In this document: piece after piece, positions 3,022 through 7,496 of the stretch
Layout: the number at the start of each line of letters is the position of its first letter
Position numbering within the stretch: position 1 is the stretch's first letter
Assembly: GCA_001804805.1 (NCBI GenBank)
Contig: MHBH01000061.1
Coordinates: 62,001-126,000 of the forward strand
Direction of reading: 5' to 3'
Length of the DNA stretch: 64,000 nucleotides
Source: Lentisphaerae bacterium GWF2_49_21
GTDB taxonomy: Bacteria; Verrucomicrobiota; Lentisphaeria; Victivallales; GWF2-50-93
Notes under the pieces: model-generated
Seen by the model: the letters and a program-made list of their open reading frames with translations, nothing else
Databases searched by the model: none
Told to the model about the DNA's origin: nothing
Made by a program: the position numbers and the translations under genes

Positions 3022-3312
3022 ATGAAACCAATTCAATTTGACTGGGATGATGGAAAAGATGCTTTGAACCGTGAAAAGCACGGTGTAAGCTTTTATCTTG
3101 CACAAAGGGCCTTTGCAGATCCAATGCGTGTGATTGCGGAGGACATAAAGCACAGCTCGGACGAGAATCGTTTTTACTGTATAGGGAAAGTTGACGACGG
3201 AATAATCACCGTCAGATTCACCTTCAGGAACAATATAATCAGAATATTCGGAGCCGGATATTGGAGAAAGGGGAAAAGGACATATGAAGAAAAAAATAAA
3301 CTACAAAAATGA
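3022..3312 (+). CDS. brnT: BrnT-family toxin (DUF497)
   Basis: 96 residues, the usual size. The family pattern is clear: FDWDDGKDALNREKHGVSF, then FADP, a central E-N-R-F-Y-C-I-G strand, VRFTFRNNIIRIFGAGY and a C-terminal acidic YEEKN. BrnT is a RelE-fold ribonuclease that stops growth by cutting RNA and is neutralised by BrnA, with which it also represses the operon. The toxin comes first and overlaps the antitoxin by 29 bases, the standard order. The core residues appear intact, so the module looks functional. Confidence 0.9.
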   Translation: MKPIQFDWDDGKDALNREKHGVSFYLAQRAFADPMRVIAEDIKHSSDENRFYCIGKVDDGIITVRFTFRNNIIRIFGAGYWRKGKRTYEEKNKLQK

Positions 3313-3526
3313 ACCGATGGGAAAAATCCGCATCGTAAAGGATTTCCTGCCAAACCCGGAACAGCTTGCATTCAAGGAGGAAAAGATCAAGACAACTATT
3401 TCCTTGAGCAGGACTAGCCTGGATTTTTTCAAGCATGAGGCGGACCATTATCACACATCCTACCAGAAAATGATAAGGAATCTTCTTGACTCCTATGTCT
3501 TGCAGCATATGGGGAAATCTCTCTAA
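3284..3526 (+). CDS. brnA: BrnA-like antitoxin
   Basis: 80 residues, overlapping the brnT 3' end. The C-terminal half (KIKTTISLSRTSLDFFK followed by YQKMIRNLLDSYV) is a ribbon-helix-helix segment like that of BrnA/CopG antitoxins, and the N-terminal part is the flexible toxin-binding region. AAGGA lies just before the ATG. A second ATG eleven codons in is a possible alternative start. The protein should bind BrnT and the shared promoter. Confidence 0.8.
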   Translation: MKKKINYKNEPMGKIRIVKDFLPNPEQLAFKEEKIKTTISLSRTSLDFFKHEADHYHTSYQKMIRNLLDSYVLQHMGKSL

Positions 3527-3707: not shown

Positions 3708-4535
3708 ATGAGATTTGCCCTATGGTCCGCGGCGGCTCTGACTGCCTTTTGTCTTTTCCTCCTGATCTCTCCAGTAACCGCCCAGGATAAAGCACCTGCG
3801 TCCTTAGGGACGCCTCCGCCTGCAAGCACGGCAGATCAGCCGAAGGACGCCCGTGCAGCCATGCTTGAAGGGGCCGGAAAACAGAAAACCACCGAGAACG
3901 AACTTGTAGCCCGTTTCAAGGAAGGTGGAAACGTGATGTGGGTACTCCTGTTCATATCAATCATGTTCATTACCTACTCAATTGAACGACTCATTAACCT
4001 GCGCCTGAAAAAGATCGCCCCCGAGGATCTTGCTGAAAAGGCCGATGAACTCTGGAAGCAGGGCAAGTTCCAGGAAATACAGGACCTCTGTGAAAAATCC
4101 GATTCAGTGCTCGCAAGGATCATAAAGCAGATCGTCAAACGCCGCGGCGAAGGCTCTGAAAGGCTTCACACGATAGCCGGCGATGTAGGAGCCAGGGAAA
4201 TGCGCCTGCAGCTGCAGAAGGCATATCCCCTTGCGGTAGCCGCCACCCTCGGGCCCCTTCTCGGTCTTCTCGGAACGGTTTCAGGAATGATCGATGCATT
4301 CAACACGGTGGCCCTCGCCGGCTCCCTCGGAAATCCAGCGCTTCTCGCGGACAGCATATCCAAGGCGATGGTGGCGACCGGAGCAGGACTTATCGTAGCA
4401 ATCCCCGCGCTTGCAGCCTATCATTATTTCAAGGGGCGCACTTTGATATATTCCGTGCAGCTCGAGGAGATTGTCACAGACCTCCTCTGCGACTGGTTCC
4501 CCCACGTGGATGATAAAAAAGAGGTGAAGCCATGA
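3708..4535 (+). CDS. MotA/TolQ/ExbB-type proton channel protein
   Basis: 275 residues. A signal-peptide-like N-terminus ends TAQDKAP, followed by a low-complexity linker, a first membrane segment at about residues 75-95 and the MotA/ExbB domain. The last two membrane segments contain LGPLLGLLGTVSGMIDAF and ATGAGLIVAIPALAAYHYF, which include the Thr and small residues lining the ion path in TolQ and ExbB. It should assemble with the next gene product into a proton-driven motor of the inner membrane. The start has AAAGGA six bases upstream. The extra cleaved N-terminus is seen in many Planctomycetes and Lentisphaerae homologues. Its stop overlaps the start of the ExbD-like gene (ATGA). Confidence 0.9.
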   Translation: MRFALWSAAALTAFCLFLLISPVTAQDKAPASLGTPPPASTADQPKDARAAMLEGAGKQKTTENELVARFKEGGNVMWVLLFISIMFITYSIERLINLRLKKIAPEDLAEKADELWKQGKFQEIQDLCEKSDSVLARIIKQIVKRRGEGSERLHTIAGDVGAREMRLQLQKAYPLAVAATLGPLLGLLGTVSGMIDAFNTVALAGSLGNPALLADSISKAMVATGAGLIVAIPALAAYHYFKGRTLIYSVQLEEIVTDLLCDWFPHVDDKKEVKP

Positions 4536-4954
4536 GGATTGATCTCGGAGATGATGATCATATAGAGATCATGCTCGTGCCGCTGATCGATTGCCTCTGC
4601 TTCCTCGTTTTTTTCTTTCTCGCCGCCTCCACCCTGAAAAAAGTCGAGAAGGAGCTTCCAATCCAGCTGCCCAAATCGTCCGCCGCCGTTTCCGTAAGCG
4701 GCTCTGTCAAGGCGTTCGCGATAGCCATCGACAGGGAGGGGCGCGTCTATCTTGGAAGCCAGCCGGTGTCGGCCGATCTCCTGCACCAGCGCATCCGTGA
4801 AGTGTCGCGCTTGAATCCGTCCCAGAAAATCCGCCTTGACGTGGATGCTTCCACGCGGGGCCAGGACATAATACGTATTTTGGATCTCTGTCAATTCGAG
4901 GGCCTTAAAAATGTCAGTTTCCACATCGCAGACGCCAAGTCGTTTTCGAAGTAG
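4532..4954 (+). CDS. ExbD/TolR-type motor protein
   Basis: 140 residues with one N-terminal membrane segment, MLVPLIDCLCFLVFFFL, that includes the conserved proton-carrying Asp of ExbD and TolR (P-L-I-D). The periplasmic part (FAIAIDREGRVYLGSQPV, IRLDVDASTRGQDIIRILDLC) follows the ExbD fold. Start and stop both overlap neighbours (ATGA at the start, 44 bases at the end), so the three-gene set is translationally coupled. It converts proton flow into movement of the partner protein encoded next. Confidence 0.92.
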   Translation: MRIDLGDDDHIEIMLVPLIDCLCFLVFFFLAASTLKKVEKELPIQLPKSSAAVSVSGSVKAFAIAIDREGRVYLGSQPVSADLLHQRIREVSRLNPSQKIRLDVDASTRGQDIIRILDLCQFEGLKNVSFHIADAKSFSK

Positions 4955-7496
4955 CAGGCGCCGTACATCGCCGTTATGGTGGCTGATATCGCTGCTGCTG
5001 CATCTTGCCGCATTTGCGGCCCTGGTCACATTGACACCGCTCAAGAATGTCATCATCCCTCCGCCGCCGACCCTTGAAGAGGCGGAACAGAACCGCATTG
5101 AGCGGATGGAAGGCGAAAAGGTCGAGACCGCCGCCGAACAGATTCGCGAAATCCGCACTGAGGATGTGCGTCTCAATGTCGAAGATCTCAAGAGCATCCG
5201 TGATGAGATGGCTGCAATAGAAAAGATCAAGCAGGAGGAATTCGAGAAGGCCACTGGAAAGAAAATGGAGCCTCCTCCGCCGATGGATGAAAAGGCCCTT
5301 GCAAAACTCAAGACTGAAGCCGATGCAAAACACAAGGAGCTGGAAAAGCTCGATGAAAAGGCCAGCAAGGCTGAAGAAGAGGCTGCCCGCCTTACAAAGG
5401 AAGCCGAAAAAAAGATGGAGGAGTCGAAGGACGCCGTAAGCCGCGAGAAACAGCTTGTCGATGAGATAAAAAAACTCCGCAAGGAGGCGCAGGAGAAACG
5501 CAAGGAGGCAAATATCTGGGAAGGGAAGAGGCAGGTCGCCGAAAGGGAGGCCCAGCAGAATGAAAATGACAAGAACCAGAAGCAGAACCAGGCGAACCAG
5601 CTGAAGGATCAGGCACAAAGGGCGGCCGACGAAGCAAAACGTCTTGAAGACGAGGCCAGCAAACAGCAGGAAGTGGTGAACAACCTCCGTTCAAAGGAAA
5701 AGACTGCACGTGATGAAGGCGCTGAGAAGATGAAGGATCCCGCGACCAAGCAGCAGGCCGAACAGAAGGCTCAGGAGGCAAAACAGCTCAATGACCAGGC
5801 CGTTCAGTCGGAGAACAGGGTGAAGCAGACGGCAGAACAGGCGAAAAATAGCCGCAAGAAGGAGACCGAGGCCAAGACCGGATTTGAGAAACTGCAGAAG
5901 GAGGCGGCTGAAAAGGAGAAGACCGCTGGCGAAAAACGCGAATCCCAGAAAGTCGCCGGGACCAGGAAGGCTGATGCCGAAAAGGAAGCTGTTCGTCTGG
6001 ACACTGAGGCCAACAAGCTTGAACAGGAGCTCCAGGCGCTGCGCAACAGGAAGAATGAGCTTGACAGGCAGACGGGCGAAATTTCTCAGCTTGCTCAAAA
6101 TAAAAATACAGAAGCCGAAGAAGCGGCTGAAAGCGCCCGTGGCACCGAGATCCAGGCCAATAACATGGCTTCAAGAGTCAAACGCGAGGAAAAACTTCGT
6201 TCCGGATCCAAGGCCGGAGCCGAGGATCTTTCTTCAAAGGACATATCTGACCTATATGATTCCGCACGGAATATGGAAGATGAGATAACTGAATCCTATA
6301 GGAATATCCGCGCAGCCGAACTCGCCATGATCAGGAACATGCCCTACAAGGATGCAGTGAATATGACCGACGTTGCAAAGCCGCCACGTCCTAATCTGGA
6401 CAGGAAAGCATTGGATAAGAAAATAGAGAACGGCCAGGATTTCGTCAAATATGAAAAGGAACTTACAAAAGTTTCACAGGAGCTCAGCGACATGCTTGGA
6501 CTGGCGACCAACATGCGAGGCGCCGCGCAGGGGCTTACCGAGGACGGCAAGGATGGCATGAATATTTCCGGCGAACTGGCCAAGGAAATGGCCGGCGCTC
6601 TAGGAAAACTTGAAGGACAGGCTGGCGCGAGCAAAGAACGCGGCGATATCAAGGACATGTCAGGACTGATGGAAAACGCCTATGAGACCGCCAGCGCCCT
6701 GGGCAAGAAAGGCAGCGGAAGCCAACAGGGAGAAGGAGAAAGTCACGATTCCAATGGCAATGCCGCCGGCAAGGCTGGATCACAGTCGGGAGGACAATCC
6801 GGAGACGGATCTGCCGGGAAAGACGGAAAAGCAGGAGCTCCTCCTGGAAAACCAGGTGAACAGATTGCTGCCGATGTATCAAAAGGTGGAGATGCCAATG
6901 GACAATCCGGTTCGATAACGAAAGAGCCTTGGAAGCTCACACACAAGGAAGGCGGCGGCGGTTCTCCACGAATGTACAAGCAGGGCGACGACTATCAGCT
7001 TACACGTTCAATCACAAAGGATGGAGAGCCGACGGACTGGCTATTCCTTGACAGCTGGTATGTGATTGGGCCGTTTCCCAATCCAGAACGCAAGAACATA
7101 AACAAGCTGTTCCCTCCAGAAACCGTGGTTGATCTTGACGGATCATATGAAGGAATGAACGGCCAGATGGTGCGATGGGCCTTCATGCAGACCGGTTCTC
7201 CGCTGCTCAGCCCTCCCCGTCAGAAGGAATATGCGATCTACTATTTCTATACTGAGATGAATTCGGACGAGGCCCGCGACATCTGGCTTCTGATAGGCAG
7301 CGACGACCAGACGAAGCTATGGATAAACGGCCAGCTTGTCTGGAAGAGCGCCGACATCCTGAAGAGTTGGAACATAGATGAAGGCTACCGCAAGGTGCGG
7401 CTGTCAAAAGGTGTCAACAAGGTGCTTGTGCGTCTTGAGAACGGCTGGCATTCCTGCGGCGCCTCGCTGGGATTCTCAACCCGTCCATTGCAGTAA
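4911..7496 (+). CDS. TolA/TonB-like energy transducer with coiled coil and jelly-roll-like tip
   Basis: 861 residues. A basic N-terminus leads into a single membrane helix, LWWLISLLLHLAAFAALV, with Ser27 and His31 spaced as in the SxxxH motif by which TonB (S16, H20) and TolA (S18, H22) contact ExbBD/TolQR. Residues about 60-490 are highly charged and Ala/Glu/Lys rich, a long coiled coil like TolA domain II. Then come a Gly/Ser-rich linker (about 600-680) and a C-terminal beta-rich domain (about 705-861: SWYVIGPFPNP, LLIGSDDQTKLWINGQLVW, NKVLVRLENG) resembling the PA14-like or carbohydrate-binding jelly rolls common in Planctomycetes secreted proteins. There is no recognisable TonB or TolA C-terminal domain. 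GAGG precedes the ATG. It is inferred to reach across the periplasm and act on a polysaccharide or outer-membrane partner. Confidence 0.75.
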   Translation: MSVSTSQTPSRFRSSRRRTSPLWWLISLLLHLAAFAALVTLTPLKNVIIPPPPTLEEAEQNRIERMEGEKVETAAEQIREIRTEDVRLNVEDLKSIRDEMAAIEKIKQEEFEKATGKKMEPPPPMDEKALAKLKTEADAKHKELEKLDEKASKAEEEAARLTKEAEKKMEESKDAVSREKQLVDEIKKLRKEAQEKRKEANIWEGKRQVAEREAQQNENDKNQKQNQANQLKDQAQRAADEAKRLEDEASKQQEVVNNLRSKEKTARDEGAEKMKDPATKQQAEQKAQEAKQLNDQAVQSENRVKQTAEQAKNSRKKETEAKTGFEKLQKEAAEKEKTAGEKRESQKVAGTRKADAEKEAVRLDTEANKLEQELQALRNRKNELDRQTGEISQLAQNKNTEAEEAAESARGTEIQANNMASRVKREEKLRSGSKAGAEDLSSKDISDLYDSARNMEDEITESYRNIRAAELAMIRNMPYKDAVNMTDVAKPPRPNLDRKALDKKIENGQDFVKYEKELTKVSQELSDMLGLATNMRGAAQGLTEDGKDGMNISGELAKEMAGALGKLEGQAGASKERGDIKDMSGLMENAYETASALGKKGSGSQQGEGESHDSNGNAAGKAGSQSGGQSGDGSAGKDGKAGAPPGKPGEQIAADVSKGGDANGQSGSITKEPWKLTHKEGGGGSPRMYKQGDDYQLTRSITKDGEPTDWLFLDSWYVIGPFPNPERKNINKLFPPETVVDLDGSYEGMNGQMVRWAFMQTGSPLLSPPRQKEYAIYYFYTEMNSDEARDIWLLIGSDDQTKLWINGQLVWKSADILKSWNIDEGYRKVRLSKGVNKVLVRLENGWHSCGASLGFSTRPLQ

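Follow-up and report, generated by a model that had tools for sequence, protein, structure and literature searches.

To our knowledge, the well-known transducer tips driven by ExbBD motors are of two kinds only, those of TonB and TolA. A three-gene cassette of Lentisphaerae bacterium GWF2_49_21, in which an ExbB-ExbD pair is followed by a transducer with neither of these tips, raises the question of what else such a motor might act on. All coordinates given here are positions in a 64,000-nucleotide stretch of contig MHBH01000061.1 (the window, i.e., the whole stretch of DNA that was analysed), in which the starts of open reading frames (ORFs) were set mechanically. The genes for an ExbB/TolQ-like motor subunit (3708..4535; 275 amino acids, aa), an ExbD/TolR-like subunit (4532..4954; 140 aa) and a TolA/TonB-like transducer with a jelly-roll tip (4911..7496; 861 aa; defined from its ORF, homologous cassettes and an AlphaFold2 (AF2) model) are all on the + strand and overlap by 4 base pairs (bp; 4532-4535) and 44 bp (4911-4954), exactly as a preliminary description of this DNA had placed them. 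Overall, our analyses indicate that the cassette probably encodes a proton-driven ExbBD machine whose transducer would engage, through a PA14-like tip, a fixed ligand in the envelope, most likely a glycan or a glycosylated component, that would be pulled or remodelled.

The tip alone, used as a query blind to ExbBD against 84,980 species genomes, identified 80 loci, 70 of which carried both ExbB and ExbD alongside, so that the triad proposed in the preliminary description is recurrent across phyla. Nine of the 10 loci without ExbBD were cut by contig ends, leaving one true interior exception (L090). In this locus, a motor-type high-scoring tip is located in a short ORF (5950-6510) with no ExbBD nearby. 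The cassette was found in six phylum-level lineages (Lentisphaerota, Kiritimatiellota, Verrucomicrobiota, Planctomycetota, KSB1 and Pseudomonadota), as taken from the names of database records, many of which represent metagenome-assembled genomes with possibly wrong names. In a second sample, i.e., 388 genomes of the window's phylum searched with a tip profile, scores were bimodal, with 42 matches (in 28 genomes) of at least 143 bits and all others at 98.5 bits or less. ExbBD genes were located beside 26 of 28 newly retrieved high-scoring tips as compared to 0 of 32 low scorers (P = 5e-15, Fisher's test; indicative only, given the relatedness of the genomes). Among the two high scorers without ExbBD, L144 was cut off and L163 truly lacked these genes. 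The two samples overlap, as some of the 28 high scorers are on contigs of the first scan; the new information is the contrast with the low scorers. This bimodality of scores and linkage, together with residues absent from the low-scoring relatives (see below), indicates that the motor-linked tip is a specialised, motor-tied subfamily within a larger pool of jelly-roll domains found in other proteins. Clustering of the neighbourhoods yielded the transducer, ExbB and ExbD as large clusters; a further cluster of 43 loci was rejected, apparently representing, judged from its example, long opposite-strand ORFs of the same genes. A plasmid search with the Pseudoduganella protein gave no match.

The motor itself is, by its Pfam matches, unambiguously of the ExbBD/TolQR proton-driven type (MotA_ExbB, 9.4e-23, for the first protein and ExbD, 1.8e-23, for the second), and the pore residues of this type are conserved. 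The ExbB-like protein, which has a signal-like extension at its N-terminus, could be aligned with solved ExbB (5sv0) and TolQ structures, and its T190 and T224 correspond to the pore threonines Thr148 and Thr181 of Escherichia coli ExbB; alignment of the ExbD-like protein with solved ExbD (7ajq_F) placed D20 at Asp25. These three positions are essential residues in ExbB and ExbD (PMC12905483). The nearest relative, Lentisphaerae GWF2_50_93 (L045/L061), has an identical order of overlapping genes. Comparison with this relative showed purifying selection on the cassette, with ratios of nonsynonymous to synonymous substitution rates (dN/dS) of 0.12 for ExbB, 0.11 for ExbD and 0.08 for the transducer; selection was strongest on the tip (dN/dS 0.044). 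A Shine-Dalgarno-like GAGG is present upstream of the transducer start.

In solved TonB and TolA complexes, a helix with the pattern S-x3-H-x6-L-x3-S (SHLS) binds the first transmembrane helix (TM1) of ExbB or TolQ (PMC12905483). The predicted membrane helix of the window transducer (residues 21-41; 4971..5033, + strand) includes S27, H31 and L38, with T42, which replaces the last Ser of the pattern, just beyond it; by its sequence, and under the SHLS definition of PMC12905483, the transducer has a membrane helix of the TonB/TolA type. Among 54 transducers from loci with one ExbD (a class that takes in loci whose second ExbD may lie past a contig end, e.g. L130), 45 from several phyla retained S-x3-H (83%, as compared to 7% expected with the region shuffled), and 25 had the full SHLS pattern with Ser or Thr in the last position. 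On the other hand, S-x3-H was found in only 5 of 25 transducers from loci with two ExbDs (P = 9e-8 as compared to the one-ExbD class, with no correction for relatedness). In a tree of the tips, two-ExbD systems fell almost wholly into one supported group (100/97), while Pseudomonadota formed a separate group (100/100). These counts and this grouping indicate that loss of the His accompanies the second ExbD, and S-x3-H therefore does not characterise the family as a whole. In the two-ExbD members the docking His is mostly replaced by Q, V, C or other residues (e.g. L093, L096, L098, L100-L102, L109, L110, L118 and L128). The named isolates with the cassette differ likewise: Massilia and Pseudoduganella have one ExbD and retain S-x3-H, whereas Cerasicoccus has two ExbDs and no His. 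The observation in the preliminary description that Ser27 and His31 are spaced as in TonB and TolA was thus borne out. Its proposal that homologues lacking both the motif and ExbBD neighbours would speak against the machine had a divided outcome, as ExbBD neighbours are nearly universal, whereas the motif, retained with one ExbD, is mostly lost with two. The contact it suggested between S27/H31 and the ExbD helix is probably wrong, as the same residues touch TM1 of ExbB or TolQ in the solved complexes.

Nine loci (L064, L065, L066, L155, L160, L161, L164, L165 and L166) presented the cassette in a split, four-gene form, comprising ExbB, ExbD, a coil protein and a second protein that bears the tip (and, where fully read, the mid-domain described below). 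All nine coil proteins carry S-x3-H in the membrane helix, and the tip proteins have a signal-peptide-like N-terminus wherever the start is clear. Split forms are scattered among fused ones in the tip tree, with at least five label changes (the doubtful L099 counted). As the coil and tip halves are naturally joined in some loci and separate in others, they appear to be functionally tied.

The tip (residues 693-861; 6987..7493, + strand) was modelled with AF2 from a 71-row alignment as an all-beta sandwich, with a mean predicted local distance difference test (pLDDT) score of 94.7, in agreement with the jelly-roll-like C-terminal domain of the preliminary description. Its best matches in the PDB (Foldseek) were the PA14-type adhesin Cea1A, CBM35, GH2 sugar-binding domains and beta-glucosidases, with E-values of about 1e-4 to 1e-3 and template modelling (TM) scores of about 0.3-0.5; MpPA14 ranked 50. 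The structure search suggested earlier thus points to PA14, CBM35 and GH2 folds as the nearest, although the similarity is weak and, in the model, is one of fold class and not of close kinship. The window transducer had no significant Pfam or NCBIfam domain, no TonB_C match up to E = 1 and no TolA family match; with these negative profile searches and the predicted all-beta sandwich, the absence of a TonB/TolA receptor-binding domain at the C-terminus, as previously proposed, was upheld. Pfam PA14 did not match the window protein and matched one of 54 family members (at 0.0037), for which Pfam and NCBIfam otherwise returned just coiled-coil or TonB/TolA noise; the tip sequence had no match among solved structures up to E = 10. 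W716, I719, G720, P721, P736, E737 and D798 are invariant in the family alignment, and Y717, W811, W820, E824, R827, N844 and S852 are specific to motor-linked forms as compared to non-motor relatives. The Asp-Asp pair D798-D799 is nearly invariant in the tips; in PA14 lectins, a cis Asp-Asp pair forms the calcium/sugar site (PMC8092209).

Between the membrane helix and the tip, the transducer (full-length AF2 model, pLDDT 79) has a charged helical region (residues 69-431; 5115..6203, + strand) with modelled helices at 69-115, 127-273 and 277-431. As the latter two are almost equally long, with a break of just three residues between them, and as Foldseek matched the model to the Smc coiled-coil arm 5xg2 (target TM 0.75), they probably form an antiparallel hairpin of about 22 nm; a single rod of ~55 nm was considered and dropped in favour of this model. 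A conserved helical mid-domain follows (residues about 441-602, helical over 445-602 in the full-length model; 6231..6716, + strand; defined from the family alignment and AF2), with conserved positions A452, A468, A472, A482 and R493-P494, and 81% identity to the nearest relative (dN/dS 0.066). A Gly/Ser/Gln-rich linker (residues 603-692; 6717..6986, + strand) is mostly disordered in the model (over 603-690, with pLDDT < 50 over 602-683). Foldseek matches of the full-length model were mostly coiled coils. The very long charged coiled coil of the preliminary description is therefore correct as to long charged helices, and needs revision in that these are probably a hairpin, not one coil, followed by a helical domain and a disordered linker.

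In the mechanism that we propose, an ExbB pentamer surrounding an ExbD dimer, as expected by homology, would be powered by the proton-motive force, and the SHLS helix would dock on the outer face of ExbB. The motor would move the arm, whose hairpin and conserved helical domain would transmit force through the periplasm, and the flexible linker would display the PA14-like jelly-roll tip in place of a TonB/TolA receptor-binding domain. The tip would hold a ligand in the envelope, a glycan or a glycosylated component of peptidoglycan or the outer membrane being the most likely, and the motor would then pull or remodel it. The association of motor and transducer is well supported, as is a force-transducing ExbBD machine with a jelly-roll tip unlike those of TonB and TolA, because the genes stay linked across phyla, the SHLS helix is conserved, a jelly roll is predicted for the tip and split forms recur; the same evidence backs the earlier suggestion of a complete force-transducing machine with a new tip.

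Several observations weigh against the proposed glycan-engaging machine. The modelled tip has weak Foldseek matches (TM scores no higher than about 0.5), and the Asp-Asp pair, being frequent in non-motor relatives too, is not a specific sign of sugar binding. The neighbourhood clustering revealed neither a glycan gene nor an outer-membrane partner that is repeatedly linked to the cassette. Judged from their sequences, members of the two-ExbD clade mostly lack the His, so that some must dock differently, and L163 encodes a motor-type tip with an N-terminal membrane helix (4455-6572) with no ExbBD nearby. By analogy, the fold and the PA14-lectin-type Asp-Asp pair make a glycan ligand plausible; a tip that binds a protein (an outer-membrane lipoprotein, a porin or a TolB/Pal-like protein), with the jelly roll as a mere scaffold, differs from our proposal on the ligand only and has, in our estimate, somewhat less than an even chance. 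The targets of TonB and TolA are proteins, the motor-only residues W811, W820, E824, R827 and N844 would be as fitting in a protein interface as in a sugar site, and the sugar site of MpPA14 is polar with no large hydrophobic side chains (PMC8092209), unlike the aromatic cluster of the tip. However, the nearest folds of the tip bind sugar or occur in sugar enzymes, and no partner gene recurs beside the cassette, so that a dedicated protein partner would be encoded elsewhere. Our guess is that glycan and protein ligands are about equally likely. The more specific idea of a widespread class of machine in which the lectin-like tip bears on a glycan of the bacterium's own envelope (peptidoglycan, lipopolysaccharide or capsule) and is pulled or shifted by the proton-driven ExbBD motor, so that polysaccharide and not an outer-membrane protein takes up the force directly, is tentative and less likely than not.

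The remaining alternatives concern the machine itself. A protein that passively tethers peptidoglycan or serves as a scaffold at the motor, without transmitting force, would be consistent with the missing His in most two-ExbD members, with L163, and with the tip of split systems being a separate secreted protein, unanchored to the motor; this appears quite improbable, as one-ExbD systems of several phyla retain the SHLS Ser and His at the frequency given above, and the coil protein of split systems also retains S-x3-H. Similarly, a divergent Tol-Pal or Ton system that performs its usual task with an exchanged domain at the C-terminus would account for the TolQ/ExbB and TolR/ExbD matches of the motor genes and for the TolQRA-like layout. 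We regard this as improbable too, since the transducer matches neither TonB_C nor TolA and, elsewhere in this genome, a true TonB_C protein has its own ExbBD locus (C4) and an OmpA/Pal-type protein is encoded on another contig (C25); given these two, the cassette represents an additional system.

Compared to TolQRA of the Tol-Pal system, the cassette shares the ExbB/TolQ and ExbD/TolR genes, a single-pass SHLS transducer and a long helical middle domain, but it lacks a TolA C-terminal domain and adjoining TolB/Pal, ends in a beta-sandwich tip and is flanked by BrnT and thioredoxin/HEAT genes. With TonB-ExbBD it shares the motor residues and the SHLS helix, whereas the window transducer lacks TonB_C and a proline-rich linker, the TonB_C protein of this genome being separate. 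PA14, galactose-binding and CBM35 domains resemble the tip in the predicted beta-sandwich and, for PA14, in the Asp-Asp pair; the tip differs in lacking a Pfam PA14 match, in having W811, W820, E824, R827 and N844, and in being joined to a motor arm. The closest parallel is provided by force transducers with vWA tips, described in the main text of Williams-Jones et al. (2025; PMC12204202) as having an unknown function. As presented there, these are also non-TonB/TolA transducers beside TolQ/TolR-like genes, in the Planctomycetes-Verrucomicrobia-Chlamydiae group and other bacteria, and they carry an SHLS helix and end in a foreign domain; the tip is a vWA domain, in contrast to the PA14-like beta-sandwich, helical mid-domain and recurrent split forms found here. 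A search of that main text revealed neither Lentisphaerae nor lectins, and its section on new transducers describes vWA tips only. No description of a jelly-roll or PA14 tip with ExbD was found in open papers (closed papers and preprints being outside the search). As it recurs in several phyla, the PA14-like-tipped ExbBD unit represents a genuine and apparently undescribed means of transmitting force through the envelope, and adds another tip to those of TonB, TolA and the 2025 vWA transducers, with six lineages, a conserved docking motif and natural split forms. The cultured carriers in Massilia, Pseudoduganella and Cerasicoccus make the target of the motor and the need for the His directly testable.

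Some loci in Kiritimatiellae and Massilia have paired tandem jelly-roll transducers with a single ExbBD motor (L086, 4012-9684; L089, 4072-9971; L117, 5068-7853; L124, 992-3669). In the genome of the window, another ExbB-ExbD pair is followed by an 832-aa TPR protein (L042, 3357-7009; G000:C17). Directly upstream of the cassette, the window contains a BrnT toxin gene (3022-3312; Pfam 5.7e-21), overlapped by a small ORF in the place of the antitoxin (3284-3526). Convergent with the cassette, on the - strand, is a gene for a 1560-aa protein (7502-12184) with thioredoxin, HEAT repeats, a glutaredoxin-like region and possible DsbD-like membrane regions. A GntR-type DNA-binding domain fused to a LacI-type periplasmic-binding-like domain is encoded at 1175-2287, also on the - strand.

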